A DNA stretch of 33,940 nt from Oxalobacter sp. (GTDB lineage: Bacteria; Pseudomonadota; Gammaproteobacteria; Burkholderiales; Burkholderiaceae_D), in the NCBI GenBank assembly GCA_017524145.1, contig JAFWUI010000054.1:1-33940 (forward strand), read 5' to 3'. The notes beneath the pieces were generated by a model. That model was given only the letters and a program-made list of their open reading frames with translations, was not told the DNA's origin and did no database searches. The translations under genes and the position numbers were made by a program. Below, one piece after another: positions 1 through 19,477 of this stretch (the stretch's first letter is position 1; each line of letters starts with the position of its first letter).

Positions 1-2361
1 CCCGATCGCCATGACTTCGCCGACGGATTTCATCTGGGTGGTCAGGTGTGGGTCGGCCTGCGGGAATTTCTCGAAGGTGAAGCGCGGCACCTTGGTGACG
101 ACGTAGTCGATGGTGGGTTCGAAGGAGACCGGGGTCGCACCGCCGGTGATCTCGTTCTTCAGCTCGTCAAGCGTGTAGCCGACAGCCAGCTTCGCTGCCA
201 CTTTCGCGATCGGGAAGCCCGTCGCCTTGGAGGCCAGCGCCGAGGAACGGGAAACACGCGGGTTCATCTCGATGACGATCATGCGCCCATCCCGGGGATT
301 GATTGCGAACTGCACATTGGAACCACCGGTATCGACACCGATTTCGCGCAGGATGGCGATGGAGGCATTGCGCATCAGCTGGTATTCTTTATCGGTGAGG
401 GTTTGTGCTGGTGCCACGGTGATGGAGTCGCCGGTGTGGATGCCCATCGGGTCCAGGTTCTCGATGGAACAGATGATGATGCAGTTGTCCGCACGGTCGC
501 GCACCACTTCCATCTCGAATTCCTTCCAGCCGATGAGGGATTCCTCGATCAGGAGTTCGCTGGTTGGGGAGGCCTCAAGCCCCCTGCGGCAGATGGTGTC
601 AAATTCTTCGGTGTTGTAGGCAATGCCGCCACCGGTCCCGCCCAGGGTGAAGGAGGGCCGGATGATGACCGGGAAACCGATGCGCCGCTGGACTTCCCAG
701 GCTTCTTCCAGGGAATGGGCAATCCCGGAACGGGCGGACTCAAGCCCGATACGGGTCATCGCATCCCGGAACTTCAGGCGGTCTTCCGCCTTGTCGATGG
801 CTTCAGGCGAGGCACCGATCAGCTCGACGCCGTATTTCTCGAGCACCCCGTTGCGGTACAGGTCCAGTGCACAGTTCAGTGCGGTCTGCCCGCCCATGGT
901 CGGCAGGATGGCGTCCGGCCGTTCCTTCGCGATGATCTTCTCGACGACCTGCCAGGTGATGGGCTCGATGTAGGTCACATCCGCCATGTTGGGGTCGGTC
1001 ATGATGGTCGCCGGGTTGCTGTTGATGAGGATGACACGGTACCCTTCCTCGCGCAGCGCCTTGCAGGCCTGGGCGCCGGAATAGTCGAATTCACATGCCT
1101 GGCCGATGATGATTGGACCGGCTCCGATGATGAGGATGCTTTTGATGTCTGTCCGTTTCGAGCTTTTTCTGGAAACTGTTTTTGCGGTTTCTTTTCCGGT
1201 TGGTTTCTGTTCCTTACCTTTGGCTTCAGCCATCAGGTCGATGAACTTATCGAAGAGATAGCCGACATCTTCTGGTCCTGGTGATGCTTCAGGATGCCCC
1301 TGGAAGCAGAATGCAGGTCTGTCTGTCCGGGCGAATCCCTGCAGGGAGCCATCAAACAGGGACTTATGTGTTACCCTGCAGTTTGACGGTAGGGAATCGA
1401 TGTCCACGGCAAAACCATGGTTCTGGGAAGTGATTAGCACCTTGCCGGTGTCCAGGTCCTGGACAGGATGGTTGGCACCATGGTGGCCGAATTTCATCTT
1501 CAGGGTCTTCGCTCCGGATGCCAATGCCATGATTTGGTGCCCCAGGCAGATGCCGAATGTCGGTATGCCTTTCTCAATCAGTTCCCGGGCTGCCTTGATG
1601 GCGTAGTCACATGGCTCTGGGTCGCCTGGTCCATTAGAGAGGAAAATCCCATCAGGGGACAGTTTCAGGACCTCTTCAACAGGGGTCTGCGCCGGCAGGA
1701 CGGTCACCTTGCAGCCCCGTTCGGTCAACATACGCAGGATGTTGCGTTTGATGCCGAAATCGAAGGCAACGACATGGTATTCCTGGGAGGCGGGCTTCTT
1801 GTAACCGGTCCCCAGTTCCCAGCAGGCTTCATCCCATTCATAGGGCTTGATGGAACTCACCGCCTTGGCAAGGTCCTGGCCGGCAAGGCTTGGGCAGCCT
1901 CTTGCCAGCATCAGTGCACGGTCCGCATCATCGCCGGTGACAATGGCACCACCCTGTGAGCCTTTCGTCCTCAGGATGCGGGTGAGCTTGCGGGTGTCGA
2001 TCCCGCAGATGGCGACGATGCCCTGTTCTTTCAGGTAGTCTGGCAAGGATTTTGTTGCCCGGAAATTGGATGGGACAGGTTGGACATCCCTGATGATGAA
2101 ACCTGCCACTTGAACCTTGGTGTTGCCTGATTCGATATCTTCTGGATTGACACCGACATTGCCGATATGGGGATAGGTCAGGGTAACAATCTGCCCGGTA
2201 TAACTGGGGTCTGTCAGTGTTTCCTGATACCCGGTCATGGATGTATTGAAAACGACCTCACCGGTGGTTTCTCCTGGAGCACCGATGGAATAGCCGCGGA
2301 ATATTGTGCCATCTGCAAGTGCCAGGACTGCCGGAATCTGTTGACCGAAAGGAAATTGCAA
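1..2361 (-). CDS. carAB: Fused carbamoyl-phosphate synthase: CarA (glutaminase) joined in frame to CarB (synthetase), 3' end outside window
   Basis: This is one uninterrupted minus-strand frame of 787 visible codons that leaves the window. It makes carbamoyl phosphate from glutamine, bicarbonate and ATP for arginine and pyrimidine synthesis. Residues 1-377 are a complete CarA: FGICLGHQ carries the nucleophile Cys272, and [11 protein letters not shown] carries His356 and Glu358, each offset by 3 from E. coli numbering. CarA normally ends just after the FIDLM segment. Here no stop occurs; a Lys/Thr/Ser-rich linker (about 378-401) leads straight into [20 protein letters not shown], the CarB N-terminus without its own start codon, and on through the first ATP-grasp domain to SVGEVMAIG. 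The start is TTG at 2361 with AAAGGAG at 2368-2374; I see no ATG or GTG upstream in that frame. Met377 has no ribosome site, so separate CarB initiation looks unlikely. Family identity is certain; the fusion is read directly. Confidence 0.95.
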
Positions 2362-2596
2362 GGTTTTCTCCTTTATGATTACACCAATTACACCATACGT
2401 ACTGTCCGCTCTGCCTTATCCTCTTCAGGTCAAGTCCTCTGGATTGGAAAATGGAAACGGTACAGGCATATCATGGTGACTGTTCAAAAATTATATTCCT
2501 ACAGATAGGGCTGGAAACAGGGTTTTCTGCAAAAAGTTCAGAGAGGTTTGCTATCCGTAGCCTGCTGTAATGGGTTCTCAACAAAGCATTGAAAAT

Positions 2597-2865: not shown

Positions 2866-4227
2866 TCAACGCCGTGTGATATAGACCAGTTTGATGTCCT
2901 CGATTTTTGTCCGGGCGATGAGCCAGTTCTTCAGTCTTTCGCGGTCAGTGTTGGTGAACCGCAGTACGGGTGAGAGGCCGACAACGCCCAGGACATAGCT
3001 GCTGGCTTCATCGGAGCTGGTTTTGTTCTCGGTTGTACTTGAAAGGCTGATGCTCTTGACGGCAGGGAAAAGGATCTTGATTTCTTTGCTGATTTCCTGT
3101 CCCAGGGTCTCGTATTGTGTGTAGGATGCCAGCCTGCTTTCAAGGTTGTGGATTTCTGCGGACTGTTTCAGGAGCAGTTCATTGTTCTCTTTCTGGACGG
3201 AACCATCCTTGCTGCGCGCTTTCTTTGCCAGGAGGACACTGTCTGCCTGGGTGCCTTGGATGATATGCAGTTCGTAGCTGTCCAGGTTGTAGTAAGGCAT
3301 TTTCTCACGGGCCTTGTTGGTGGCTTCTTCGGTGATTTCCTTGCCGACAGCAACGATGTTCAGCGTGTTTTTCTCGGTATTCAGGTTCTGGGAAATGACT
3401 TCTGTGCCTTGGAATGCCAGTTCTTTTTTGACGAATTTCGTGACATTGCTGTTCAGGATGCTTTTCTGGATGATGTCGTAGGTGAGGTAAGAGGCTGGCA
3501 GCAGGGTCAGGATGACAATCACGATGATGGAGCGGTGCAGTTTCACCTCGGTGGTATTGTCTTCCAGTGTCTTACGCTTGAACCGCAGCATCCTGACACC
3601 GATGAATGTCGCCAGGCAGATGAATACCATATTGATGAAATAGAGATAGAAAGCACCGAGGAAATAGGAAATGTTCCCCATGGCGATGCCATAGCCGGCG
3701 GTGCAGAGTGGTGGCATCAATGCTGTGGCGATGGCAGCACCTGCGATGATGTTGCCCTTGTCTTTTGTGGCCAGTGCCAGGATGCCGGCAGCACCCCCTC
3801 CCAATGCAATCAGGATGTCATAAAGGGTCGGTGAGGTATAGGCAAGCAGTTCTGAGCCTGCATCGGTCAGCGGGGTGATGAGGAAATACAGCGTTGCCGT
3901 CAGGATGCTCATCACGATGGAAATCAGATGGTTCTTGATGGAGCGTTTGAGTAGGTCCAGGTCGTTGATGCCGATGGCGAGCCCCATGCCAAGGATCGGC
4001 CCCACCATCGGTGAAATCAGCATGGCGCCGATAATGGCAGTCTGGGAGTTGATGTTCAATCCAAGGGAAGCAATGAAGATGGCGAAAACCAGCACCCAAA
4101 GGCTGACCCCACGGAAAACAGCGTTTTTGCTGATCTGTTCAACGGTTTCCTGTTCGCGCTGTTTGTCAGGAAGGGCATTGAAATAGCCTTTTATCACTGA
4201 CAATGGGCTTCTGATCTGTTTAGCCAT
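2866..4227 (-). CDS. DUF389 family integral membrane protein
   Basis: The 453-residue protein has a short cytoplasmic-looking N-terminus and then a block of hydrophobic helices. This block includes the DUF389 hallmarks SQTAIIGAMLISPMVGPILG and AGAAIATALMPPLCTAGYG, and the last helix is ILTLLPASYLTYDII. After it comes a soluble C-terminal half rich in Lys and Glu, with a coiled-coil-like stretch around the ENNELLLKQSAEIHNLESRL segment. The biochemical role of the family is unknown. I chose the ATG at 4227; an upstream in-frame TTG at 4257 would add ten residues but has no ribosome site. The gene follows the terminator of the upstream lipoprotein gene, so it is probably its own transcription unit. 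Family assignment rests on recalled motif pattern. Confidence 0.85.
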   Translation of the reverse strand: MAKQIRSPLSVIKGYFNALPDKQREQETVEQISKNAVFRGVSLWVLVFAIFIASLGLNINSQTAIIGAMLISPMVGPILGMGLAIGINDLDLLKRSIKNHLISIVMSILTATLYFLITPLTDAGSELLAYTSPTLYDILIALGGGAAGILALATKDKGNIIAGAAIATALMPPLCTAGYGIAMGNISYFLGAFYLYFINMVFICLATFIGVRMLRFKRKTLEDNTTEVKLHRSIIVIVILTLLPASYLTYDIIQKSILNSNVTKFVKKELAFQGTEVISQNLNTEKNTLNIVAVGKEITEEATNKAREKMPYYNLDSYELHIIQGTQADSVLLAKKARSKDGSVQKENNELLLKQSAEIHNLESRLASYTQYETLGQEISKEIKILFPAVKSISLSSTTENKTSSDEASSYVLGVVGLSPVLRFTNTDRERLKNWLIARTKIEDIKLVYITRR

Positions 4228-4321
4228 AATCGGTTCTGTGGATAAAGCGCTTCTCAACCGATAATCTTAAGCGATTCTTTCACAGGTTGTCGACTGGTAA
4301 AAAACGGGACGTACCCTGAAT

Positions 4322-4352
4322 GAAAAAGTCCTGCCATAAATACGGCAGGACT
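4322..4352 (-). terminator. Rho-independent terminator after the lipoprotein gene
   Basis: AGTCCTGCC (4327-4335) pairs perfectly with GGCAGGACT (4344-4352) around an 8-nt loop. On the minus strand the stem is followed directly by a TTTTT run. It lies about 30 nt beyond the stop of the lipoprotein gene. Confidence 0.9.
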
Positions 4353-4380
4353 CATCTATTGCTTAGAAACAGGGGGCAGG

Positions 4381-4965
4381 TTATTTCTTGGCAACCTTGG
4401 ACATCAGGAGAGCTTGGGTTTCCTTGTCGTCCATATCGAGGACTTTCCAGCCGTCTTCCGATTTGATCAGGAATAATGGCATAAGTTCTTCGACAGAACC
4501 GGCTTTTTTATTGGCTTGGTCTTTGGTTGCCTTGATGCCAATGGTTGCCTGGCATAAGGTCCCTGTTTTGACTTCTTCTTCCTTGATAGGTACAGGTGCA
4601 TCCCCTTTTATGGTTTCAAAGTAAACGACTTTCGTGACAACCGGTTCCCCCATTGCCGTCAACATGCCTTTAGCCTGGCTGTCGGTGATCCGTTTGGCTG
4701 CCTCAGCAGGGAAAGCCGCTTTGTTTTTTTCTGGGACATACATGAACTTGACGGCAGCAGCGCCATCTGCCTTATCGACCAGTTTTAGATATTCAAGTGA
4801 AACATCTTCTGGTTTGGTAATGCCGGTTGCAGGAGCAGGGGTGGCGGCAGATGCTGAAGCGGTGGCTGAGGCAGCAGGTTTTGCTGGTTCAGTTTTTTTG
4901 CCGCAGCCTGCAACGACAGAACCCATTGCAAGGGCAATTGCAGTACTGATCAATAAACGTTTCAT
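4381..4965 (-). CDS. Predicted lipoprotein of unknown function
   Basis: The 194-residue precursor begins MKRLLISTAIALAMGSVVAGC, a signal sequence ending in a lipobox with Cys21 as the lipidation site. A low-complexity Ala/Pro/Thr/Ser tether follows (about 25-48). The remaining globular part, beginning with the TKPEDVSLEYLKLVDKADG segment, resembles NTF2-like DUF4878-type lipoproteins in pattern (a short helical start, then the closing FLIKSEDGWKVLDM strand pair). That resemblance is an inference. The start is supported by AGAGGAG six nt upstream of the ATG. The gene stands alone, with its own terminator, divergent from the tail-anchored protein gene. The function is not recognisable; a periplasmic membrane-attached location is well supported. 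Confidence 0.85.
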   Translation of the reverse strand: MKRLLISTAIALAMGSVVAGCGKKTEPAKPAASATASASAATPAPATGITKPEDVSLEYLKLVDKADGAAAVKFMYVPEKNKAAFPAEAAKRITDSQAKGMLTAMGEPVVTKVVYFETIKGDAPVPIKEEEVKTGTLCQATIGIKATKDQANKKAGSVEELMPLFLIKSEDGWKVLDMDDKETQALLMSKVAKK

Positions 4966-5161
4966 CTGGTTCTCCTCTCTGTTTGCTGATAGATACTTAC
5001 AGGGCAGCTAGCCGTAAACTGCAGATATTCTACCTGAGTCCTGCAATGCTTTAAAAACTGAAAGCCCATCTTGCCTATACCCAGAAGGATTTGTTATCGT
5101 GTTAACAAAACAGGATGTTGTTTATCGGATTCAATTTTATTGGTGAAAGGGGGCAGAAACC

Positions 5162-5884
5162 ATGTCAGCAAGTGATGGAAACAAGGGTTCTCTGGAAACT
5201 GATGCAGGAATTTCTTCTGAATCCATGGATGTGTTTGGACAGCCTGCGATGCCTGCTGTATGGGCGACTATCGATGAAGGGGAGACTTGGGTCTGGGACG
5301 ATTATTTCCTGGTGCTCCAGGAATATCCTGAAACAGTCGCTGTCCATTCTGCAAGGGAAGCTGGTGAGCCTGTACCCAGACAAAGCATGCTTTTCCCTAA
5401 TGTGCTGTCGGTGTTTTACCGGTACGACAAGAGCCTTTATGGCCCTTCGGGGAAACCCGTCTGCCTTTTCATGCTTGAAGTCCCTGATGTTGATTCGAGG
5501 GACAAATATATGGGGGCGAAGTCAGCTGATGCTTTCCTTTCATCGTTAGGCAAGGATGGCCTGAGGCCTGATTACCGCCAGGTATGGGCTGATGGGCGTG
5601 ATGATTCCAGGATTTACGAGGGGTCATTTGAACAGAACAGTGTCCGGAGTTTTTTCTTCAAGGAATTCAAGACCATTTTCAAGGCCAAGGGCGTACCCCG
5701 CTTTCAAGGTGCATTGAAAGATGCCCTGATAGGACAGGAAAATGAAAAGGGAGGGAAAGAATACCGTCCTGAACGGCTGTCTTCTGGTGATGATGACGGG
5801 GAACCTAAAAAGAAGAGTTCCAAATGGTTCTATATTGCTATCGTCATCCTCGTCATCATCGGTTTTGTCCTGGTGACCAAATAA
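5162..5884 (+). CDS. Tail-anchored membrane protein, unknown function
   Basis: The 240-residue protein has no N-terminal signal. It has one hydrophobic helix at the extreme C-terminus (about 222-238, WFYIAIVILVIIGFVLV) preceded by a basic PKKKSSK stretch, so it looks like a cytoplasmic domain anchored by its tail. The body (about 20-190) is mixed alpha/beta with many aromatic residues and matches no family I recognise. An acidic, probably disordered linker (about 188-214) joins body and anchor. A purine-rich GAAAGGGGG precedes the ATG at 5162. A decayed copy of the 3' end of this gene lies about 2.1 kb downstream (7893-7970), so a paralogue once existed or the end was duplicated when the AT-rich segment arrived. 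Confidence 0.8.
   Translation: MSASDGNKGSLETDAGISSESMDVFGQPAMPAVWATIDEGETWVWDDYFLVLQEYPETVAVHSAREAGEPVPRQSMLFPNVLSVFYRYDKSLYGPSGKPVCLFMLEVPDVDSRDKYMGAKSADAFLSSLGKDGLRPDYRQVWADGRDDSRIYEGSFEQNSVRSFFFKEFKTIFKAKGVPRFQGALKDALIGQENEKGGKEYRPERLSSGDDDGEPKKKSSKWFYIAIVILVIIGFVLVTK
5871..5883 (+). repeat. Direct repeat, left copy
   Basis: TGGTGACCAAATA forms the last codons of the tail-anchored protein gene. The same 13 bases recur at 7955-7967. The two copies bracket the AT-rich segment and sit in a longer imperfect similarity. Confidence 0.8.
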
Positions 5885-6220
5885 TTGCAGTAGGAAAACA
5901 CCCCAAAAAATATTAAGAACAGGATTTTTACAAGCAGTCCTTTTCTGCTTGAAAATTCAAAAAGAGTCCTCTGTCTTCTATACAACCACCATTGTAAAGA
6001 CCTCTTCAGTCTGTATTTTCTCCTTTATTTTCTGGAGGAAAGATTGAGAACTACATTTTATCGGTTACTATAGTTATTTCATAGAATCTTTCAGGAATCG
6101 CATAGAAAATTTTTTAGTGACAGATGCAATAATCATATCGTCAGATATCAAAATCCAACTGGTTAAATTTTGAAAAATTGACATCTGGTTGCGATATTTT
6201 ATCGGTTGTTCGAATATTCC
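5885..6220. other. AT-rich intergenic stretch
   Basis: No gene is visible here. A 7-bp inverted repeat, CAAGCAG at 5931-5937 with CTGCTTG at 5945-5951, could end transcription of the preceding gene but lacks a T-run. Composition changes from mixed to clearly AT-rich across this stretch. Confidence 0.5.
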
Positions 6221-7120
6221 TTAATCTAGTTTTAGAGAAGGTATGTCTTCTCTATTAAAGGTAACTCCCAGTCTTTTTTCAATTTCGTCTGAACATTCTC
6301 CTGTTGTAACATCTATGTATGAAACGGAACTACAAGTAACAGTTACTAAATTTGATTTATTAAATCCAGAAACTGTAATTATATACATCTTTTCATTATT
6401 AAGGATTAAATCATATTCAATCATTCTGTATTCATAATTTTTTCCATTTTTAGTTATGAAGTCAGAACTAACTTTTGTTGATTTTTTAATATCTTCTTTT
6501 GATCTGTTTCTTTGAAATTTACCAAATTCATTGTTATCATTTCAAGATTTTCTATTACTATATACATGCTCTATAAACTTATTTTTCAGTCTTTTATTTT
6601 CATCTAGAAGATATGAACTTCCAAGTAAATTGAAATTATTTTCATTAATATTGCCGCTTGATGGAATTATTGAAAATTGTGTTTTTATTGGAACTTCGGT
6701 TTTATTGTTGTGCTTTGATTCTTTTGAGTTGTTGTTTATGGTAATATTATCGTTTTTTGTATTTTCATTTATCTTTAATGAATAAATGGAATTGATTGTT
6801 AAAAATAGGAAAATAGGGCTTAATATCAGGCTTATTGTGAAATCCCATTTTTTAAATCTTGTAATGATTGTACCCCATATAATGCCAAGAATTGTACTTA
6901 AAATTAAAAAAATAAAAGGACTATACCAATGAAGTCTGATGCCAATAAAAATCAAAGCAACTATTATGCCTAGAAACAAAACCAATTCCATTATTGTGTG
7001 GAACGGTTTTCTCATTCCAAGGATATCGTGTTCCTTGTGAAGAATATAAGTAAATATAGAATAACAAGATATAAATATTGAAAAATATATATACAGACGA
7101 TACGGGATTGAAAATAACAT
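6221..7120 (-). pseudogene. Membrane protein gene interrupted by an in-frame TGA
   Basis: A 192-codon frame (7120 to 6542) ends in TGA. The identical frame then stays open for a further 106 codons to 6221 without a new ribosome site near the junction. Read together this is one gene of about 299 residues with one nonsense codon. The N-terminal part has four hydrophobic helices (roughly 9-27, 42-62, 66-85, 93-110). The remainder is a polar Asn/Lys/Ser-rich domain containing SDFITKNGKNYEYR and the SYIDVTTGECSDEI segment. The distal part alone could start at the ATG at 6424 (67 residues), but its upstream frame reads like protein too. Codon use is very AT-rich, unlike the flanking genes, which suggests transfer. 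The family is unknown. A sequencing error or genuine stop readthrough are alternatives. Confidence 0.6.
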
Positions 7121-7174
7121 AAGTCTTTTAAAATATATAAATGTTATCTAGTTAAAATGATACAATATAATTTT

Positions 7175-7489
7175 TTACCAACATTCATTATTTTGTCCTA
7201 TTATGTCATCATCAATTTCTTCCCAACGTGAATCTCTATTACTTTTCATAAGGAAGACTTCTCTGTTGTCATCAGTTCTAATGACATCGGATTTCATTAA
7301 AGAAATTTCTTTCGTCTTAAATCGTTTATCATAACGACACGACATTCCAGTTTTCTTTTGTCCTTTCATGCAATTTTTGTATAAGACATCAACTTTTTTT
7401 GAAGAGCTCCCTTTCAAAATACAATGAGGGGTAGAAAAACAGACGCCGCTTGATAGCATCAAAATCATTCCGATAAGCGTTTTTTTCAT
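7175..7489 (-). CDS. Small secreted Cys-containing protein, unknown function
   Basis: The 104-residue precursor has a clear signal peptide (MKKTLIGMILMLSSGVCFS). The mature part is basic and polar with four cysteines (in HCILKG, KNCMKG, SCRYDK and the C-terminal NECW), consistent with disulfide bonds in the periplasm. AGAGGT precedes the ATG with suitable spacing. It follows the interrupted membrane-protein gene on the same strand within the AT-rich segment and shares its codon bias. I do not recognise the family; it could be a small exported effector or cell-envelope protein. Confidence 0.7.
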   Translation of the reverse strand: MKKTLIGMILMLSSGVCFSTPHCILKGSSSKKVDVLYKNCMKGQKKTGMSCRYDKRFKTKEISLMKSDVIRTDDNREVFLMKSNRDSRWEEIDDDIIGQNNECW

Positions 7490-7892
7490 AAGATACCTCT
7501 ATAGAATGTTAAGAACAATGGTTGTCAAGTTATTTTTTCTGTTGAATTTTTCCATTCTGGAATACATATTTGACAGTAAATGAAGATATCTATCCTTTGA
7601 AAGTTCCTCTACCCGAGAACTTTTAACCATTAAGATTATTCCTGAATTTCACAAATTCCCCTGTATTTCCTGTACAGATTATTATTCAGTCAATGTAAAC
7701 TGTGTTTATGATTGAGGTTTCTGTTATTCTTACCACCACGGCCGACGAGAACTATTGAAATCAAATCAACCATCAACAGTTTCTTCATAGGAATCTTCTT
7801 TCTATAGTCTATCGACTGTCTAAAAAATATGCAAGGGGAGGGGTATTGTCAATCTTTTCCCTTGATAAATTGCTAAACTAAAAGGAAAATCG
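7490..7892. other. AT-rich stretch with at most a vestigial small frame
   Basis: No supported gene. A 32-codon minus frame at 7788-7690 begins MKKLLMVDLISIVLVG, which looks like the start of a signal peptide, but it ends quickly and lacks a convincing ribosome site. It may be the broken start of another small exported protein. Confidence 0.4.
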
Positions 7893-7970
7893 CAGACAAG
7901 AAAATGAAAAAGTAGGTTCAGATTATCGCCACTCTTGTCATCGTTGACTTTGTTTGGTGACCAAATAGCA
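7893..7970 (+). pseudogene. Decayed copy of the 3' end of the tail-anchored protein gene
   Basis: GACAAGAAAATGAAAAAG here resembles GACAGGAAAATGAAAAGG of the tail-anchored gene (about 5733-5750). The following bases up to TGGTGACCAAATA at 7955-7967 resemble 5834-5883, with substitutions and small gaps, so an internal part is missing. Read in frame it contains a stop. This marks the right edge of the AT-rich segment. The relationship is by eye, not by a computed alignment. Confidence 0.55.
7955..7967 (+). repeat. Direct repeat, right copy
   Basis: TGGTGACCAAATA is an exact copy of 5871-5883. A GCAG...GGAAA tail follows in both places with a short gap. Confidence 0.8.
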
Positions 7971-7989
7971 GGAAACTGCCATCTGGCAA

Positions 7990-8187
7990 TCAGATGGTGA
8001 ACTGCGCATAGCGTTTCCGTTGGGATGCGATGAAAGACTTGCTTCGGCGGAGTTTGAGTTTCTTGACCTTGGTGCGTACCTGGTCAACAGACCGTCTGAG
8101 GGTTTTGGTGATTTCTTCCATGGGAGTATCTGGGTAGAGGCGCTTAAGAAGATCGATTTCTTCTTCTGTCCACAGCTGTTTTCCCAT
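7990..8187 (-). CDS. Small SANT/Myb-like helix-turn-helix protein
   Basis: The 65-residue protein opens with a WTEEEIDLLKRLYPDTPMEEI motif block (about 6-26) and continues with a second amphipathic helix segment and a basic VKKLKLRRSK tail. This is the three-helix pattern of SANT/Myb-like or GcrA-like DNA-binding domains. I chose the ATG at 8187 because GGAG lies five nt upstream; a longer version from 8223 adds twelve unlikely residues. It stands between the AT-rich segment and the phosphopantetheinyl transferase gene, about 175 bp downstream of the latter. The target is unknown. Confidence 0.65.
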   Translation of the reverse strand: MGKQLWTEEEIDLLKRLYPDTPMEEITKTLRRSVDQVRTKVKKLKLRRSKSFIASQRKRYAQFTI

Positions 8188-8361
8188 AAACACTCCATAC
8201 CAGGTTGAACAATAAAATGGCATTGCATTCTATCAGGAACAACTGAAGACGGCTCGATACCTAGCAGGAATCTGTTGAAAAATTTTCTGTTCTGCAACAT
8301 TTTCTGCATCATTCCCAAGACAAGGAGGGGATTGTCTATGCAGGAATGCCATTTGGAAAAC

Positions 8362-9120
8362 TTAGCGCCTGAAGATATCAAATGCATTATCCAGGTTATA
8401 GGATGACGTCTGTGTCAGGGTGAATTCAACCGCCGGGTCAGCCTGGCAGACTGTAATCAGCAGGTCTGTTCCGGGACGCAGTGTCTGCCATTGAAAACGG
8501 CTGTCTGTCAGGCAGTCTGTCTGCCAGAAACGGTCATCATGGATACCGCCATATTTGCTGGAAAGCAGTTTGTAGCAGGCTTCTTTGCGTGTCCAGAGTT
8601 CATAGTATCCGCGGTGCCATTCATTGGCAGGTTGGGATGACAGCCATTTGTTTTCATGGCGGTTGAATGCGGTTTCGGCGGGTGTCGCGATTTCCCTTCC
8701 AGTATCCACTATCTCGATGTCCAGTCCTATCAGGCGGGAGCGGCTGATGGCACAGACAGCATAGTCATAACGGTATGCAAGGCTGTAATGAAGCGGTCCA
8801 GTCAGCGGTGGCATAGCACGTAGCTGGGGCGTGTTGCTGCGGCGTTCAATCAAGGCCAGTTCATCGATTGGCCGCTCCAACAGTTTGGAAACAGCATATT
8901 TTGCCAGCAGCCTGCCAACCACAAACTGGATACGGCGCTGTTTCCGGCTGAGTTCACTGTAACGGATGACAGAGCTTTCGTGCAGGATGCCAACGATGTC
9001 TTCCGGCATCAGGACAGGCAGTTTCCTGATATCGAGCAGCCATAGGGAACAGTCAGGCAGGAGGTCCTGTTTCTGGACGATGGTATCGAGTACCGCAGGT
9101 GAGAAAGGTGTATCAGGCAT
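8362..9120 (-). CDS. 4'-phosphopantetheinyl transferase, Sfp/AcpT type
   Basis: The enzyme transfers 4'-phosphopantetheine from coenzyme A to a serine of carrier proteins. The 252-residue protein has the two-lobed Sfp layout. Family motifs are visible: GLDIEIVDTGR (Asp134 and Glu136, Mg ligands) and WTRKEACYK (Glu180, catalytic), preceded by the substrate-binding HYSLAYRYD segment (about 111-119). Length suits the Sfp/Gsp class rather than the short AcpS class. The ATG at 9120 is chosen; an in-frame TTG at 9135 would add five residues. Neither start has a strong ribosome site. No polyketide or non-ribosomal peptide gene is nearby, so the carrier-protein partner is unknown. Confidence 0.9.
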   Translation of the reverse strand: MPDTPFSPAVLDTIVQKQDLLPDCSLWLLDIRKLPVLMPEDIVGILHESSVIRYSELSRKQRRIQFVVGRLLAKYAVSKLLERPIDELALIERRSNTPQLRAMPPLTGPLHYSLAYRYDYAVCAISRSRLIGLDIEIVDTGREIATPAETAFNRHENKWLSSQPANEWHRGYYELWTRKEACYKLLSSKYGGIHDDRFWQTDCLTDSRFQWQTLRPGTDLLITVCQADPAVEFTLTQTSSYNLDNAFDIFRR

Positions 9121-9270
9121 ACTGCACGGATTCAATCAGGTTGAGATGGATTGGAAGCTCCTATTTTAATGGAAGACTGCATCCATCAGGGCATGGATTG
9201 CCGGGAATACCATCTTTCATGGTGTTGGGCTATGATGATTGGAAGCATTCTTGGCAGGAAAGGAAGCAGC

Positions 9271-9858
9271 ATGAAAATCCGTATCCCATCGGCGATGGCA
9301 GTTTATGCCCTGTTATTGGTGTCTGCTGTGCCTGTTGCCTATGCAACAGCAGATGATGTGCCTTTGCCTGTAAATGCGGTGTCTTCCCAGCAGCCGTTTA
9401 TCCAGACTTTGCAGAAGGCGGAAGCAGGGGATGCCAAGGCACAGTACGATATGGCACGTTTTTACCAGACAGGCAGTGGTGTAACACAAGATGCTGCCAA
9501 AGCCATACAGTGGCTGACTAAAGCTGCTGAACAGGGATTGGTCGAGGCAGAGACATCATTGGGCAGTGCCTATGATGTGGGAATGGGAGTGCCATTGAGT
9601 AACCGGAAGGCTGTTTATTGGTGGCAGAAAGCAGCCAGGCATGGAAGTGATTATGCATTGAGGTGCTTGGGGTATGCCTATATCGAGGGACGGGGTGTTG
9701 CCCAGAGCAATCTGTATGCTTATGTCATCTGGAAACAGTTGCCACCTGATGATGCTGAGGCAATGGCGGTATTGCAGGCACTCCGCAAGAACCTGTCTGC
9801 AGAGGAAATTGCCAGAGGTGACCAGATGACGCTGGATGGCGTGTTCAAGGGGGAATAA
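9271..9858 (+). CDS. Exported Sel1-repeat protein
   Basis: The 195-residue precursor has a signal peptide (MKIRIPSAMAVYALLLVSAVPVAYA; written in parts, MKIRIPSAMA then a hydrophobic core ending AYA). It carries about three Sel1-like repeats, seen as AKAQYDMARFYQTGSGV, AETSLGSAYDVGMGV and ALRCLGYAYIEGRGV, each followed by an Ala/Trp helix. Such repeats form helical scaffolds that bind proteins, often in the periplasm. AGGAA lies just before the ATG at 9271; a longer upstream frame exists but contains no signal-like sequence. It is divergent from the phosphopantetheinyl transferase gene and convergent with the transporter gene. The partner is unknown. Confidence 0.85.
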   Translation: MKIRIPSAMAVYALLLVSAVPVAYATADDVPLPVNAVSSQQPFIQTLQKAEAGDAKAQYDMARFYQTGSGVTQDAAKAIQWLTKAAEQGLVEAETSLGSAYDVGMGVPLSNRKAVYWWQKAARHGSDYALRCLGYAYIEGRGVAQSNLYAYVIWKQLPPDDAEAMAVLQALRKNLSAEEIARGDQMTLDGVFKGE

Positions 9859-9891
9859 CAGGGATGCTGATGTCCAGAAGGAGCTGCTGGG

Positions 9892-11409
9892 TCAGCTGAA
9901 GACCAGGCCGCTGCCGAACCAGCAGAAGGTGGCGATGGTCACAATGGCAATCAGGTTGAGCCAGAAACCTGCCCGGATCATTTCTCCGATACGGATATGC
10001 CCTGTACTGAATACAATGGCATTCGGCGGTGTTGCAACTGGCATCATGAAAGCAGCTGATGCCCCGAAAGTGGTGGCAAGCAGCAGGATTTCTGCCGGGA
10101 TTCCAATAGGGGCCGCCGCAACGGACAGCAACGGGATCATGGTCGCTGCAAGTGCTGTATTGGAAGTGATTTCTGTTGCGAAAACGACCAGTGCCGTAAT
10201 CCCGAGGATGACGATGAATCCGGGCATACCCGCCAATGATGCTGCCTGTGCACTCAATAGGCCATCACAGCCGGTTTTGGAAATGGCGGCTGCCATTGAA
10301 AGACCGCCCCCGAACAGCAACAGCAACCCTAACGGCAGCTGGCGGCATTGTTCCCAAGTCAGTGTCCGCTGGTTGAGTTTGAGGTTCAGCGGCATCAGGA
10401 AAAGCAGCAATCCTCCAAAAATTGCAATGGATGCATCTGAAATGCCGGTAAAAGGTTTTGTACCATCTGACAGGGCAATCATCTTGATGTAAGGACTGGT
10501 GATCCAGAGGAGGACAGTGAACAGGAAAATACCCAGCACCAGCTTCTCACCACGGGACATGGCGCCCATTTTCTTGATTTCATTGTTGATCCATACACGG
10601 CCACCTGGAATTTCATCAATCTGGTCACGGAAGAGGACTTGGTTCAACAGCAGCCATGCGAGTGGCAGCAGGGTCAACATCAATGGCAGGCCCAGTTTCA
10701 TCCAGTCCATCACGGAGACTTCAATGTTATAGGTATGTTCCATGAAGCGGACAAAGATACCATTGGGTGGGGATCCAAGTACGGTACCCATGCCACCGAT
10801 ACTGGCACCATAGGCAACACAAAGCAGCATACAGATGGAGAAATTGTGTTCCTTACGGTTGGAACGCATCCCGCCATGGCATTCAGTATGGAACAGGCGC
10901 AGGACGGCTGAGACAATCGGTACCATCATTGCAGCGGTTGCGGTATTGGAAACCCACATTGCCAGCAGGGCGGTTGCAATCATCATCCCGGCACTGATCT
11001 GCTTGGGTTTGGTTCCCATGATGCGGATGGTGTACAGTGCCAGACGGCGGTCAAGGTTCCATCGTTGGATGCCTGCAGCCAGCAGGAAGCCACCCAGGAA
11101 CAGGAAAATGGTACTGCTGCCATAAGGGATGCAGGTATCTTTCAGGGACGCGATACCCAGTACCGGGAACAGGGCAACAGGAATGATGGCGGTGGCGGCG
11201 ATGGGTATGGCTTCTGTGAACCAATAGATGCCCATCAGTACGACAACCGCAAGACAGGCTTTTGCTGCATGGCTGAATGGCTGGGGTTCACCAAGCGCAT
11301 TGGTGTAGGTATCCGGCAGCATGAAATAGACGGCTATCGCAACGATTGGACCGATGATTAAAGCAGAATACCTGAGGTTACGGAAAAACCGCCCGATCCT
11401 GCCGGACAT
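9892..11409 (-). CDS. DASS (SLC13-type) anion:sodium symporter
   Basis: The protein of 505 residues is predicted to import di- or tricarboxylates with sodium across the inner membrane. It shows the inverted-repeat architecture of the DASS family with two Ser-Asn-Thr motifs, WVSNTATAAMM and ITSNTALAATM, which bind sodium and substrate. Their companion loops are GTVLGSPPNGIF and MPVATPPNAIVF. The ATG at 11409 has GAGG ten nt upstream. A GTG at 11433 with GGGAG is an equally plausible start adding eight residues. Substrate cannot be told from the sequence; succinate, malate, citrate or oxalate-related dicarboxylates fit the family. It is convergent with the Sel1 gene and divergent from exbB. Confidence 0.9.
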   Translation of the reverse strand: MSGRIGRFFRNLRYSALIIGPIVAIAVYFMLPDTYTNALGEPQPFSHAAKACLAVVVLMGIYWFTEAIPIAATAIIPVALFPVLGIASLKDTCIPYGSSTIFLFLGGFLLAAGIQRWNLDRRLALYTIRIMGTKPKQISAGMMIATALLAMWVSNTATAAMMVPIVSAVLRLFHTECHGGMRSNRKEHNFSICMLLCVAYGASIGGMGTVLGSPPNGIFVRFMEHTYNIEVSVMDWMKLGLPLMLTLLPLAWLLLNQVLFRDQIDEIPGGRVWINNEIKKMGAMSRGEKLVLGIFLFTVLLWITSPYIKMIALSDGTKPFTGISDASIAIFGGLLLFLMPLNLKLNQRTLTWEQCRQLPLGLLLLFGGGLSMAAAISKTGCDGLLSAQAASLAGMPGFIVILGITALVVFATEITSNTALAATMIPLLSVAAAPIGIPAEILLLATTFGASAAFMMPVATPPNAIVFSTGHIRIGEMIRAGFWLNLIAIVTIATFCWFGSGLVFS

Positions 11410-11679
11410 CGGATTGAAGCCTCTCCGTATCACAAAAATTCTCCCTGCTTGGTTTGACTGTTGCTGTTTTCGGTGTATCCAGCAGTCCAGATCCGCATTG
11501 GAACACCAATGGGTCATTATACGACACTCATGGAGTTAAATGGCACTGCAACTTGTCGGAAACCTATCGGTTTTCAGGGAAAGGGAAATCTGGAAATCAG
11601 GAATGTTCCCGGGCCTTTTTACCGTTTTTTCTGGAAAGGACTGGCTTCTGCCATGACTGGATAGGCGGTGCTGATGCCG

Positions 11680-11708
11680 TTGCCTGATGAGGCGGGTGAT
11701 AATATCAT
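11680..11708 (+). promoter_or_regulatory. Candidate promoter of exbB-exbD-tonB with an overlapping palindrome
   Basis: TTGCCT (11680-11685), a 17-bp spacer and TATCAT (11703-11708) form a reasonable sigma-70 pair about 50 bp before exbB. The imperfect palindrome TGATAATATCAT overlaps the -10 element and contains a GATAAT hexamer, so Fur control is possible but unproven. Confidence 0.35.
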
Positions 11709-11759
11709 GGCTGTGTCTGTATTTGGCTGGACTGTCTTGATGGAAATGGAAAAGAGAGC

Positions 11760-12185
11760 ATGAACTGGTTGGTGGAGCTGATTGATTACGGGGTGGTAGG
11801 CATCCTGCTCATCCTTTCTATTGTGGTTGTCGCTCTGTCGATAGAGCGTTTCCTCTTTTTCAAAGGCGTGGCGATGGAAGCCTATGCTTCCCGGAACAAG
11901 CTGGAGTATGACCTGTCCAAGCACCTGCATATCATCGGTACGATTGCCGGTAATGTCCCTTATGTCGGGTTGCTTGGCACGGTGTTGGGCATCATGGTCA
12001 CTTTTTACCAGATTGGGATGACCGGCTCAATGGATTCCCGGACGGTCATGGTCGGGCTGGCATTGGCACTGAAAGCCACTGCCATCGGATTGGCTATCGC
12101 CATTGTTGCAGTGATGCTCTACAACATGCTTGTCCGCCGAGCAAAGAACATTCTCCTGTTATGGGATGCTGCCCATGAAGAATAG
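11760..12185 (+). CDS. exbB: ExbB-like proton channel subunit
   Basis: The 141-residue inner-membrane protein belongs to the MotA/TolQ/ExbB family, which couples the proton gradient to TonB. Helix 1 spans about 8-34. Helices 2 and 3 lie around YVGLLGTVLGIMVTFYQIG and in the ALALKATAIGLAIAIVAVML region, with the family's conserved small residues and Thr. This is the short form of ExbB, lacking the long N-terminal extension of E. coli ExbB. It opens a three-gene operon: its end overlaps the exbD start by about ten bases. Confidence 0.9.
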   Translation: MNWLVELIDYGVVGILLILSIVVVALSIERFLFFKGVAMEAYASRNKLEYDLSKHLHIIGTIAGNVPYVGLLGTVLGIMVTFYQIGMTGSMDSRTVMVGLALALKATAIGLAIAIVAVMLYNMLVRRAKNILLLWDAAHEE

Positions 12186-12576
12186 TTTCGATGGGAAGGA
12201 GGGGTTGACCGAAATCAATATGGTGCCGCTTATCGATGTCATGCTGGTGCTGGTGGTCATCCTGTTGATGACAGCGACTTTTGTGGTGCCCAATATGACT
12301 CCTGAGGGCATCCACGTCAGCCTGCCGCAGGCACAGGGCGCCCAAGCGGTTGCGGACTCTCCTGTCCAGGTTGAGCTGGATGCCCAAGGCAGGCTGTCTG
12401 TTGATGGGCAGCCAGTGGCGGCTTCCAACCTGCCGGTGGTGTTGACGGATATTCCCCGGGAACGGTCGGTGTTGATTGCTGCTGACAGGGCAGTGCAGCT
12501 GCAGGCATTTGTTGCTGTCATGGATACCCTCCGGCAGCAGGGTTTCACACGGATAAGTGTGCGGACACAGCGATGA
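12175..12576 (+). CDS. exbD: ExbD-like energy-transducing protein
   Basis: The 133-residue protein has one transmembrane helix (about 17-38) that carries the essential aspartate, Asp21, in NMVPLIDVMLVLVV. A periplasmic domain with the usual ExbD strand-helix pattern follows, ending VMDTLRQQGFTRISVRT. The start is ambiguous: ATG at 12175 gives the typical short cytoplasmic tail, while ATG at 12166 adds three residues. Both lie inside the end of exbB, so translation is probably coupled. The stop overlaps the tonB start by four bases. Confidence 0.9.
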   Translation: MKNSFDGKEGLTEINMVPLIDVMLVLVVILLMTATFVVPNMTPEGIHVSLPQAQGAQAVADSPVQVELDAQGRLSVDGQPVAASNLPVVLTDIPRERSVLIAADRAVQLQAFVAVMDTLRQQGFTRISVRTQR

Positions 12577-13322
12577 ACCGCCTTGCCAGAGGACTGCTGT
12601 TTTCCGTGATTGCCCATATGGTTGTAGTTGGGGCTGTCTGCCTGTTGGCAGGGGCGGGGCAGCCTGAGGACAATCTGGTGGAGGTGGACCTCTCAGCTGT
12701 CGGCTTCCATGATGGCAAAGGTGGTGGCGGTGGGATGGAAGGGAACGGTTCCAATGGCCATGCCCCTGTCCCAGCCATGGCAGGGCAACCAGATTCCAAG
12801 GATGTTGCCACTTCATCTATGGGGCAGTCTGTTTCCAGTCAGGTTTCTTCTGACGGAAAGCATCCTGACATCATCCAGCCGGCATCAACCTTGCCAGGCA
12901 GACCTATACAGGGGACTGTCGATGGTCCAGCCGCAGGACGTGGTATTGGCAGCGGGCTTGGTGCCGGGACGGGCTCGGGTATCGGTTCAGGCAGTGGTAC
13001 TGGCGATGGATCAGGTTCAGGTACAGGTGGAGGCGGGAGTGTCAGCCATTATGTTGCTGCCAATTACAGTTATATCCTTGCCCATATCCAGCGGCAGGTT
13101 GTCTATCCAGCTCAGGCAAGGATGATGGGGATTTCAGGAAAGGCCGTTTATTCATTTGTCATCCGGCAGGATGGGCATATTGACAACCTTTCATTGATCA
13201 GCAGTGCGGGACTTGATTCATTGGATGCTGCCGGGTTGAGGGCTATCCGGAAAGCCAGCCCGTTCCCGGCTCCTCCCGCACCTGCCCGTATCAAGGTGCC
13301 GATAGTCTTCTCATTGCATTGA
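12573..13322 (+). CDS. tonB: TonB protein with Gly/Ser-rich linker
   Basis: The 249-residue energy transducer links ExbB-ExbD to outer-membrane receptors. The N-terminal helix (about 8-28) has the SVIAH pattern with Ser11 and His15, matching the Ser/His pair of TonB helices. The C-terminal TonB domain (about 160-249) begins at NYSYILAHIQRQVVYPAQAR and ends in a SPFPAPP segment. The periplasmic span between them is not the usual Pro-rich Pro-Glu/Pro-Lys region. It is rich in Gly and Ser, most extremely at 122-156, and only scattered prolines occur. ATGA overlap with exbD indicates coupled translation. No receptor gene is adjacent, so this may be a general rather than dedicated system. Confidence 0.9.
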   Translation: MNRLARGLLFSVIAHMVVVGAVCLLAGAGQPEDNLVEVDLSAVGFHDGKGGGGGMEGNGSNGHAPVPAMAGQPDSKDVATSSMGQSVSSQVSSDGKHPDIIQPASTLPGRPIQGTVDGPAAGRGIGSGLGAGTGSGIGSGSGTGDGSGSGTGGGGSVSHYVAANYSYILAHIQRQVVYPAQARMMGISGKAVYSFVIRQDGHIDNLSLISSAGLDSLDAAGLRAIRKASPFPAPPAPARIKVPIVFSLH

Positions 13323-13370
13323 AACGGTTGACCTGCTGCAGGCAGCACACAGGCGCGGCAGGCGAGGATA

Positions 13371-13688
13371 TCAGCAACGGGGAATCCGGTTGTCATCCAA
13401 GTCATCTTCAGCATACCACCAGGCATGCTGCGAAACGGTTGCCCAACTGCCGCCATGGCGGTAGATGAACCGGATGCCGTGGCGCCGGCAGAAATTCACA
13501 AATTCAAGGCGCTCCATGCTGCCCAGCAACCAGAGCAGCCCTCCCTGTGAACGTTTGTCGTAATACCGGAGCCCTGCTGCCTTGATCAGTTCAACGACAT
13601 CGACCTTGGATTCCCGTGCAGCCTTGCGTGCCGTTTCCAGCTTGAGTTGGGTGAAAGCGCGGATATCCGGTTTTCCTTTCCGTTTCAT
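13371..13688 (-). CDS. Small unknown protein
   Basis: The 105-residue basic protein has a helical start (FTQLKLETARKAARESKVD) and a compact domain with KSQGG-like DKRSQGGLLWLLG, an RRHGIRFIYRHGG segment and a closing WWY. In pattern the second half resembles a module often found at the C-terminus of bacterial helicase or ATPase proteins (a hydrophobic Leu-Trp strand, a helix, a GI-F strand, a Gly-Gly turn and a terminal Trp-Trp). That similarity is by memory. The gene is convergent with tonB and lies just downstream of the phosphoesterase gene start region on the same strand order. Ribosome site is weak. Confidence 0.65.
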   Translation of the reverse strand: MKRKGKPDIRAFTQLKLETARKAARESKVDVVELIKAAGLRYYDKRSQGGLLWLLGSMERLEFVNFCRRHGIRFIYRHGGSWATVSQHAWWYAEDDLDDNRIPRC

Positions 13689-13764
13689 GGTTTCATCACC
13701 AGCAAATGAAAATGCCTGTCCCCTATTCTACCGGAGGGGGACTGTTTGTGAAGGTGTGTCTGTC

Positions 13765-14898
13765 CTAAGGTGCGGCCGGATGCAGGACCAGTTCAGTGAT
13801 TTCAGAAGGTTTGCCTAAACGGATCAGGAAGCCGTTCCATAGCCCTGCTCCATTGCTGACATATAGCTTCATGCCGTCCACATCATACAGGCCTGAGACA
13901 TAGCCACCATTGACCATCTGATTCAGCCAATGGATGCCGAGTACATGCCCGCCATGGGTATGTCCTGAGAGCTGCAGGTCCACACCAGCTGCGGCATTGG
14001 CGTCCGCCCCTTTCGGCTGGTGCGCCATCAGGATGACCGGGACACCTTCGGGCTTGCCGGCCAGGGCTTTCTGGATGTCTGGTTCGGCCAACCCGAATCG
14101 GGCGGCAGTCCGGTCAGTAGTGCCTGCCAGTATAATCTGGCTGCCTTTGTCGTTCAGGACCAGGTGTTCATTTTTCAGGATGCGCAGCCCCAAACCCTCA
14201 AAATAGCGCATCCATGCGAGGTAATTGGAATAGTATTCATGGTTGCCGGTAACGACATAAACGCCAAGACGTGCCTTCAGGTCTTTATAGGGGGCGACAT
14301 CATCCACCCGGTTCTTGGTGAGTCCATCAACCAAATCGCCGGTGACAACCATCAGGTCAGGGTTCAGGGCATTGGCCTTGTCCACTACGGCGCGCATCCA
14401 TTCAGCGTCCATCAGGCGGCAGGCATGCAGGTCGGTCAGCTGGACAACCCGGAAGCCGTCCAGTTCCTTCGGCAGATGGCGTACATTGACATGTACCTGC
14501 TTGACATCGGGTACCCGGATGCCTTGCCACGTGCCGATTGCTGACAGGATGATGGCAAGGACACCCAGTCCGATATTCCATTGCCAGCCCAATTGCGGTT
14601 TCTGGGGGAAAAAGCCGGTTTTGCCGGCAATCCAAAGGAAAATGGAAGCAATATCTTTAAGGATCAGGAAACAGAGCAGCAGGATGAAGGCACCTGTTGC
14701 CCAGCCTGCCACGATGATGACGCCTCTAGGCACTTCTGGGGATGCCCAGCCACCGAAGAGGTTGGTGATCAGCCCCCACTGCGAAATCAGCAGGATGACC
14801 AGTGCAATGGCGATTTTCCAGGCACGGCTGAAAGGCAGTGCCGGAACAAAACGCCAGATGACAATAGCGGCAAACAGGGCAGGAAAGATCAGGAACAT
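13765..14898 (-). CDS. Membrane-anchored metallophosphoesterase (YaeI/YkuE-like)
   Basis: The 377-residue protein has about four N-terminal hydrophobic helices (4-18, 27-46, 60-80, 108-124) and then a calcineurin-like domain. All five metal-site motifs are present: TDLHA (Asp156, His158), GDLVDG (Asp188), GNHEY (Asn219, His220), AHQP (His293) and GHTHGG (His313, His315). Relatives cleave phosphodiester or pyrophosphate bonds of membrane-associated substrates, but the true substrate is uncertain. The ATG has AGG seven nt upstream. A GATAAT-repeat site lies some 40 bp upstream. Confidence 0.9.
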   Translation of the reverse strand: MFLIFPALFAAIVIWRFVPALPFSRAWKIAIALVILLISQWGLITNLFGGWASPEVPRGVIIVAGWATGAFILLLCFLILKDIASIFLWIAGKTGFFPQKPQLGWQWNIGLGVLAIILSAIGTWQGIRVPDVKQVHVNVRHLPKELDGFRVVQLTDLHACRLMDAEWMRAVVDKANALNPDLMVVTGDLVDGLTKNRVDDVAPYKDLKARLGVYVVTGNHEYYSNYLAWMRYFEGLGLRILKNEHLVLNDKGSQIILAGTTDRTAARFGLAEPDIQKALAGKPEGVPVILMAHQPKGADANAAAGVDLQLSGHTHGGHVLGIHWLNQMVNGGYVSGLYDVDGMKLYVSNGAGLWNGFLIRLGKPSEITELVLHPAAP

Positions 14899-14934
14899 CC
14901 CCAGACCTTTTTGAGGTTCAGCAGAAACAAGTCA

Positions 14935-14953
14935 GATAATGATAATGGATAAA
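14935..14953. promoter_or_regulatory. GATAAT-repeat, possible Fur box
   Basis: GATAATGATAATGGATAAA contains two tandem GATAAT hexamers and a degenerate third, the arrangement seen in Fur sites. It lies between the cupin gene end and the metallophosphoesterase start. Binding is speculative; chance occurrence in an AT-rich gap is possible. Confidence 0.3.
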
Positions 14954-14984
14954 AGGGGGTGGAATAAGCCTCTGTCACAGAATT

Positions 14985-15506
14985 TTACGGTTTTGGGTTT
15001 GTTGCCTGCCCCAGATATTCAGCATCAGAGACTTTTTCAAACCATTCAACGTTCTGGCCGGCTGCATCATAGCCGGTGATGGCGATATGGGTCATCGCGC
15101 TGTCGGGTGAAGCTCCGTGCCAATGTCTGACGCCGGCTGGGCACTGTACGACATCGCCTGGATTCAGTTCAACGGTTTTGCCGCCTTCATAGCCGGTCAA
15201 GCCTTTCCCTGCCGTAACAATCAATGTCTGTCCGGCGGGATGGAGATGCCATGCGGTACGGGCACCTGGCTGGAAGGTGACGGAGGCCCCAGAGGCTTGG
15301 AGGTCAGTGGTCTTATTGAACAGCATATCGACTTTCACTTCACCGGTGAACCATGCATCAGGACCAGCAAAAGAGCCCAGGGAATGGGCGGGAAGTACCG
15401 TCTGGATGCTGTTGCCGGGATGCGCCGTCATATCTATGGTGTTGCCTGCCTGTGCGGCACCTGCCATTGCGATAGGGAGCAATGATGTAATCAAAAGTTT
15501 TTTCAT
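14985..15506 (-). CDS. Exported cupin-domain protein
   Basis: The 173-residue precursor has a signal peptide ([20 protein letters not shown]). A single cupin barrel follows: motif 1 is [20 protein letters not shown] with His87, His89 and Gln93 as likely metal ligands, and motif 2 is [17 protein letters not shown] with His128 or His130. Exported cupins of this type are often annotated as quercetin-dioxygenase-like or carboxymuconolactone-decarboxylase-associated proteins, but no reaction can be assigned. Its ATG overlaps the stop of the O-acetyltransferase gene in an ATGA arrangement, so the two are translationally coupled. Confidence 0.88.
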
Positions 15507-16102
15507 CTGGATTCCTTGTTGTCTTGTTTTACATTGATTGTTTTGATGATTCGGGCAGGAACACCGCCGACCACTGTATTTGGCGGGACATCTTTTGTAA
15601 CGACAGCACCCGCAGCGATGATTGCCCCATCACCGATTGTGGTGTTTCCAACAATAGACACATTTGCACCAATCCAGACATTCCTGCCAATGACGATTGG
15701 TGCTGGATGGATGTCGCCACGGCGTGCTGGATCCGCATCATGGTTCAGGGATGCCATCACGCAGTTGTGTCCAATCAGGGTTCCATCTCCGATAGTGATG
15801 CCTCCCTGGTCCTGGAAACGGCAGCCGGAGTTGATGAATACCCTTTTGCCGATGGTCAGGTTCTTGCCACAGTCAGTGGTGAAAGGAGGGAACAGCATGA
15901 AATCATCTGGAACTGGCCGTCCCGTGATTTTCGCCATGATTCCACGGATTTCTTCCGGCATATGGTATTTGGTATTCAGTTCTACCGTCAGTTTCATGGC
16001 TTCCTGAGCAAAGGTGTGGAAAGTCCTGCTGAGTTCAGAACCTGTTTCCACAAGGGGCCGCGCAGCCATCAGTCTGCGGAATTCGTCAACAGATAACGTC
16101 AT
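15503..16102 (-). CDS. Maltose/galactoside-type O-acetyltransferase (LacA/Maa family)
   Basis: The 199-residue protein is a left-handed beta-helix acetyltransferase that moves acetyl from acetyl-CoA to a sugar or similar hydroxyl. The N-terminal helical Mac domain (about 5-60) is followed by hexapeptide repeats. Catalytic His121 sits in [10 protein letters not shown], and the C-terminal coils read [16 protein letters not shown] then [23 protein letters not shown] precedes the ATG at a usable distance. It sits between the hydrolase gene (83 bp upstream) and the cupin gene (4-bp overlap), which suggests one transcript. Confidence 0.92.
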
Positions 16103-16185
16103 TTTTAGACCTTATTGGAATAAACATCAGAAATATGAGTGGATTTGTCTAAAAGCCTATCTACTATCTATACACAACGCAGTCC

Positions 16186-17145: not shown

Positions 17146-17250
17146 TATGAGATTCCTTCCCAGTATTTTAGAAGTCAGGTTTCCGGATTCCATCACCTTG
17201 CTGTTGCAGTCAATGATTCCGTATGATGAGTGGCAGTTTAACGACAACAC

Positions 17251-17284
17251 CATGAAATGTCTAATGCCAATAATTCATTTCATG
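17251..17284. promoter_or_regulatory. Perfect 9-bp inverted repeat in the LysR divergent region
   Basis: CATGAAATG (17251-17259) and CATTTCATG (17276-17284) are exact inverted copies separated by 16 bp. The position between the hydrolase gene and the divergent lysR-type gene suggests a regulator site or a DNA structure. Confidence 0.55.
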
Positions 17285-17285
17285 T

Positions 17286-17302
17286 TATGCTTCAGAGGCA
17301 TA
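17286..17302. promoter_or_regulatory. Candidate LysR box
   Basis: TATGC-N7-GCATA is a perfect dyad that contains the T-N11-A core typical of LysR-type binding sites (T at 17288, A at 17300). It lies about 35 bp before the LysR start, a normal place for autoregulation and divergent activation. Confidence 0.5.
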
Positions 17303-17335
17303 GTCTAAAAAGACAATCAGACAGGAGGCGCCATT

Positions 17336-19440: not shown

Positions 19441-19477
19441 TTTATAATGCCGGTATGTTTCAAGGAAGGAGCTTCAG

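Follow-up and report, generated by a model that had tools for sequence, protein, structure and literature searches.

CPS of bacteria is known as a heterodimer of a glutaminase, CarA, and a synthetase, CarB (E. coli, PDB 1BXR). The formation of CPS1 and CAD involved joining the two in one chain, and laboratory work on E. coli carAB has reproduced that step. A stretch of Oxalobacter DNA in which both moieties lie in one reading frame raises the question whether a bacterium has made this fusion by itself. The event would be young enough for comparison with the unfused sister copy, with the original site and with the intergenic region that relatives keep from before the fusion. It would be a natural experiment on how fusion affects ammonia channelling and the balance of subunits, and on the decay of a glutaminase whose task a second copy has taken over.

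The stretch analysed, hereafter the window, spans all 33,940 bp of contig C39 from the draft MAG G000, an assembly of 1.81 Mb in 55 contigs that is 87% complete with an estimated contamination of 0.19%. It was compared with the other genomes of the genus. TIGR03254 (oxalyl-CoA decarboxylase) scored above cut-off in 12 of the 13 genomes of the genus, the thirteenth having a fragment below cut-off, and in one of 14 control genomes; together with relatives from Massilia, Herbaspirillum and Duganella, this makes Oxalobacter the most likely genus.

The fused frame and its junction

According to the ORF list, the minus strand from 2361 to 1 encodes 787 codons, with a TTG start and without a stop up to the contig edge. 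The preliminary description had claimed a single frame from a TTG start through CarA and a linker into CarB; since no stop occurs in 2361..1 this is borne out, and one uninterrupted frame for the small and large moieties is confirmed. TTG is also the start codon of E. coli carA (PMC6245113). A Shine-Dalgarno-like AAGGAG at 2373..2368 precedes the start with a spacing of 6 nt. The features used below, including comparisons with a second carAB copy on contig C8 and with assembly G010 of another species, are:

1..2361, minus strand: fused carA-carB frame, 787 codons, open at the contig end
1222..2361, minus strand: CarA (glutaminase) moiety, residues 1-380; E. coli CarA 5-376; TIGR01368
1546..1548, minus strand: codon of Cys272, equivalent to E. 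coli Cys269; intact in the window, Gly in the C8 copy
1288..1296, minus strand: codons of His356, Pro357 and Glu358, equivalent to E. coli His353 to Glu355; in the C8 copy His is kept and Thr replaces Glu
1159..1221, minus strand: linker, residues 381-401 (21 aa); codon 389 is GGA at the place of the C8 TGA stop
1..1158, minus strand: N-terminal part of CarB (synthetase), residues 402-787; E. coli CarB 3-388; checked ATP-grasp residues intact
2368..2373, minus strand: Shine-Dalgarno-like AAGGAG before the TTG start
2362..2539, minus strand: upstream stretch in which similarity between the window and C8 or G010:C39 persists, giving the 5' limit of the duplicated segment; probably includes a putative promoter
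2866..4257, minus strand: DUF389 membrane-protein gene adjoining the duplicate (PF04087 above cut-off, TIGR00341 and TIGR00271 below); marker of the derived site
1..141, unstranded: same sequence as the first bases of contig C8, resembling a k = 141 overlap at a fork in the assembly, with the two paralogues merging there

Alignment to solved structures placed residues 11-379 on E. coli CarA 5-376 and residues 402-787 on E. coli CarB 3-388, while against human CPS1 the best stretch is continuous from residue 196 to 787. The frame obtained 479 bits with NCBIfam TIGR01368 (CarA; cut-off 307) and 775 bits with NF003671 (CarB), which is also above cut-off; its 710 bits with TIGR01369 (CarB) fall short of the 1,027 set as cut-off for full-length proteins, a result of the truncation at the contig edge. 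In a 40-row alignment of bacterial carAB, made by reading through the intergenic stop and showing a mean column identity of 71%, the triad C272, H356 and E358 is invariant in all rows, including the window. In the first ATP-grasp (carboxyphosphate) domain all 13 checked E. coli positions, which we chose and take to have metal and ATP roles, are intact in both the window and the C8 copy, among them R129, R169, E215, H243, Q285, E299, N301 and R303. Since the contig ends inside CarB, ahead of the oligomerisation, second ATP-grasp and allosteric domains, and PF02787, the next CarB domain, has no match in its own 87%-complete assembly, full length is inferred from the E. coli alignment, by which a chain of about 1,470 aa is expected.

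The linker was described earlier as having about 24 residues; its existence holds, its size is 21. Between residues 378 and 453 no in-frame ATG, GTG or TTG occurs, and CarB therefore lacks a usual start of its own. Compared with C8, the TGA stop has become GGA at codon 389, part of the carA-carB intergenic stretch is absent, and the carB start ATG-CCA reads AGC-TCG. As several changes are needed for the open junction, a single sequencing error does not explain it. The two genes are separated by a stop in C8 and at 10 of 10 other testable Oxalobacter loci, a test that covered loci with both genes and left G010 and G002 outside the count. The gap measures 65 nt in C8 and 6-108 nt in nine of those ten loci; at the remaining junction, that of G005, a stop followed soon after by an ATG was seen by eye in the printed sequence, so that it is not among the nine measured gaps.

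Two carAB sites in the genome

Contig C8 of the same genome carries carA and carB as two genes, the latter with an ATG. Its CarA (L038:1230-2444) is an unfused open frame beside an unfused CarB, and inside neither gene is there a stop or frameshift in the part seen. Protein identity to the window copy is 83% for CarA and 93% for CarB. Upstream of C8 carA lie genes for a tryptophanyl-tRNA synthetase, an M50-type peptidase, a Sua5-type protein and an HtpX-type protease (names by eye). This context aligns beside carA in G004, G003, G009, G005, G011, G001, G012, G007, G006 and G002, the contig of the last ending in carA, and also with G010:C39 as a 15-kb block; G008 aligns with C8 only within carAB, on a 9.5-kb contig.

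The context of the window, on the other hand, aligned at a carAB locus only with G010:C40 among the 13 genomes of the genus. With the C8 context in G010:C39 and the window context in G010:C40, two sites therefore exist in both G000 and G010. The G010 contigs at both sites break inside carA; there G010:C40 and G010:C39 (L041/L040) start with exactly 127 common bases, as at a k = 127 fork, and the G010 bin gave no match to the window protein better than the two carA pieces. Each of the other 11 genomes of the genus has one PF00988 match (in G002 a fragment). In G004 the window gene order from 2866 to 20919 is present without carAB, with a gap at 5.9-8.4 kb, and past the DUF389 gene follow tRNA-Cys, tRNA-Gly, pgsA and uvrC (the last two named by eye).

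By this synteny C8 is taken to be the ancestral carAB site. The simplest account of the window copy is a duplication into a derived site before G000 and G010 diverged, because the window order occurs without carAB in G004 and the window context is found at carAB only in G010. Possibly the duplicate is older and was lost in G004, since gene conversion, considered below, could make the copies look like young sisters. The earlier claim of a fusion in this bacterium thus stands for the frame itself, but the same genome also holds an unfused carA-carB at the ancestral site, with a broken glutaminase. The suggested use as a lineage marker has to be narrowed: at present the fusion is known from one species only, and its sister G010 shares just the second site.

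A tRNA-Cys/tRNA-Gly cluster beside pgsA, L179:1-643 (G000:C43) and L171:15333-15818 (G004:C20), lies next to the expected place of the carAB duplicate. About 500 bp of it are 96% identical between G000 and G004, against 75% for the neighbouring 3.4 kb, and G000 has an extra tRNA-Gly; the cluster may be an integration hotspot. Elsewhere in the family carA duplication recurs, with two or three PF00988 matches in each of G580, G601, G632, G640, G642 and G667.

Selection, exchange and rival explanations

Changes along the two lineages were polarised by G004, which leaves out 30 ambiguous sites in CarA and 17 in CarB and yields counts that are blurred by gene conversion. For CarA they amount to 32 synonymous and 10 nonsynonymous in the window lineage against 43 and 66 in the C8 lineage, for CarB to 37 and 5 against 19 and 20. 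Of the columns invariant in 15 relatives, the window copy changes 4/188 in CarA and 3/288 in CarB, C8 27/188 and 15/288; the glutaminase half holds 21 of the 27 C8 CarA changes. A CarA+CarB protein tree joins window and C8 as sisters (100/100) with end branches of 0.0021 and 0.17, respectively. Judged by these patterns, the fused copy is under strong purifying selection and the C8 copy is relaxed. That CarB stays so conserved while lacking a start codon is best understood if it is translated as the continuation of CarA, although most of the purifying selection measured could predate the fusion step.

When compared with E. coli, C8 CarA has replaced Cys269 by Gly, Glu355 by Thr, His312-Gly313 by Gln-Asp and Gly359 by Ala, while His353 is kept. 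Cys269 and His353 are described as essential for glutamine hydrolysis (PMC6245113). C8 is probably decaying or changing function. It may also be a plain pseudogene; in simulations 148 random substitutions left C8 free of stops in only 1.8-4.1% of cases, and 86 in 8.8-15.8%. CPS I, the ammonia-dependent form activated by N-acetylglutamate, is recognised among other things by loss of the catalytic Cys of the glutaminase, a loss found in C8 (C269G, plus E355T), which we do not class as CPS I.

Identity between the window and C8 copies, taken in 60-base windows, ranges from 65% to 100%. Over the 680 codons whose first two bases agree, the longest unbroken run of agreement at the third base spans 48 codons, a length reached in 9 of 10,000 shuffles, but the contig edge is one such run, guaranteed by the assembly fork. 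After exclusion of the last 48 codons, the maximum falls to 38 (seen in 80 of 10,000 shuffles), and the seven runs of at least 20 codons were matched in 0 of 10,000. Over the first 417 bases the G010 copies pair with each other (90/93), although by their flanks one belongs with C8 and the other with the window. These mosaics suggest that tracts were exchanged between the copies by gene conversion; uneven constraint along the gene could add to the pattern.

Our preferred reading, which we hold with high though not full confidence, is that a duplicated carAB fused into a working glutamine-dependent single-chain CPS while the C8 copy decays or changes function. The duplicate would have lost its carA stop, an intergenic stretch and the carB start codon, so that one mRNA with one start would give a single chain of glutaminase, 21-residue tether and synthetase. 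Cys-His-Glu in the CarA moiety would release ammonia to be channelled to the synthetase, the tether bridging the distance that a 20-residue linker covers in human CPS1. Selection to work would act on the fused copy, and the ancestral two-gene copy would be losing its glutaminase residues.

The open frame could instead come from a chimeric contig or from two strains in one bin, as this is a draft MAG with mosaic identity between the copies and with both contigs starting at a common 141-base stretch inside carB. C39 and C8 indeed begin at the same carB base and are identical there for exactly 141 bases, as at a k = 141 fork. However, this is the only identical run of at least 141 between the copies; the next longest is 116, and so there is no bridge for a k = 141 chimera between contig edge and junction, and a chimera via a shared repeat is not supported. 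Against an artefact also speak the linker, which is set apart from C8 and G004 by a deletion as well as substitutions rather than by one base, the low contamination estimate, and the same pair of sites in G010, the assembly of another species. We regard it as very improbable. Slightly less so is a persistence of two subunits, with ribosomes starting inside the frame, at ATG377 or a rare codon, to make some or most of the CarB as a separate protein. The in-frame ATG377, in the tail of CarA, lies 25 codons ahead of the CarB homology and could in principle start a CarB extended by 25 residues. No Shine-Dalgarno sequence was seen before it, and at the same position all 10 other full Oxalobacter CarA rows likewise have Met, as part of CarA; moreover, with nothing to stop it, translation of CarA would run on into the fusion all the same.

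The least probable of the rivals is that the window holds an accidental fusion in a redundant, dying duplicate and that the C8 operon provides the working CPS. C8 does occupy the ancestral site with separate, apparently uninterrupted genes and an ATG for CarB, but the selection contrast points the other way and its CarA lacks two members, Cys269 and Glu355, of the glutamine-hydrolysing triad. A division of labour, with a fused glutamine-using CPS in the window and in C8 a two-subunit CPS living on ammonia, with a dead glutaminase and intact synthetase residues, is unlikely but deserves more weight than any of these. If true, it would be a small and recent parallel of the split between animal CPS II and CPS I. 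For E. coli CPS ammonia is reported to work only at very high, likely unphysiological levels (PMC6245113), which argues against an easy ammonia role for C8. Synteny, selection and the loss of both stop and start codons support a bacterial CarA-CarB fusion.

Rarity and known counterparts

A CarA ORF was found at 153 loci, some genomes being counted more than once, and CarB too at 151; both in one frame occurred only in three overlapping pieces of the window. All 80 named GTDB loci among them are unfused, these being the best 80 of 593 matches, which lean to close relatives and to operons with both genes in one frame. Searching bacterial proteomes with the junction had been proposed as a check. 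In a class sample of 369 genomes (312 with a match at E 1e-60), a stop occurs in each of the 82 other matches listed that span the junction from query residue 60 or earlier. The longest other CarA frame was 623 aa in a phylum sample of 150 genomes (139 with PF00988), and in a family sample of 145 genomes (143 with a match) the longest among the matches listed was 606 aa. The GTDB, class, phylum and family samples overlap, and other phyla are barely touched by them. Long frames of 1,505, 1,751 and 1,825 aa (G044, G019 and G053) were rejected as fusions, with CarA and CarB in separate ORFs; the same was true of all nine long-frame genomes inspected for frames of 1,286-1,609 aa in the class sample.

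Among the titles and abstract beginnings listed in a literature search, none named a natural bacterial carA-carB fusion. An engineered E. coli CarA-CarB fusion, made by intergenic deletion, is reported as active and 10-fold activated (Guy, Rotgeri and Evans 1997, via PMC5348867), and E. coli CPS has been studied as a pre-fusion complex (PMC4009401). Because that engineered fusion is reported to be active and eukaryotes have fused CPS, the window fusion is a rare natural bacterial variant of a known fusion, of a kind we do not claim to be unheard of.

Relative to the E. coli heterodimer, the window keeps the same moieties, the triad, the checked CarB residues and a TTG start, but would form one chain, with stop, intergenic stretch and carB start lost and the CarB C-terminus beyond the contig. 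It resembles the engineered fusion in being in frame with loss of the intergenic region; that one was made in the laboratory, whereas the window fusion is natural, apparently reached by the same path, and lies in a duplicate. Vertebrate CPS1, a single chain (PDB 5DOT), has the same order, and in the human enzyme a mobile linker of 20 residues and about 50 A joins the moieties (PMC4655335), compared with 21 residues here. Human CPS1, however, has Ser for the Cys, whereas the window keeps Cys-His-Glu, and the window sequence is that of a bacterial carAB and not of a eukaryotic gene. CAD and fungal CPS II are likewise glutamine-dependent fusions of glutaminase and synthetase, but are fused to ATCase and DHOase (PMC6022934); in this genome ornithine carbamoyltransferase, and a weaker match fitting aspartate carbamoyltransferase, are genes of their own elsewhere. 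The first relatives among the matches listed, which may omit near kin of the window, are from Massilia and Herbaspirillum; Duganella comes lower in the order, at 79%. Import from a eukaryote was rejected, given that the relatives are bacterial carAB and that window and C8 are sisters with full support.

Fusion may have raised activity, equalised dosage or eased assembly. The preliminary description had proposed that it may fix a 1:1 ratio and the channel geometry.

Three further genes of the window deserve mention. At 27752-29311 (plus strand) a protein with 11 matched DUF4116 stretches is encoded. The start of its gene is overlapped on the opposite strand by the frame of a histone-deacetylase-family protein (26567-28015, minus strand), whose true start is probably further in. 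At 18223-19440 (plus strand) lies the gene for a short FtsK/SpoIIIE-family protein of 405 aa.
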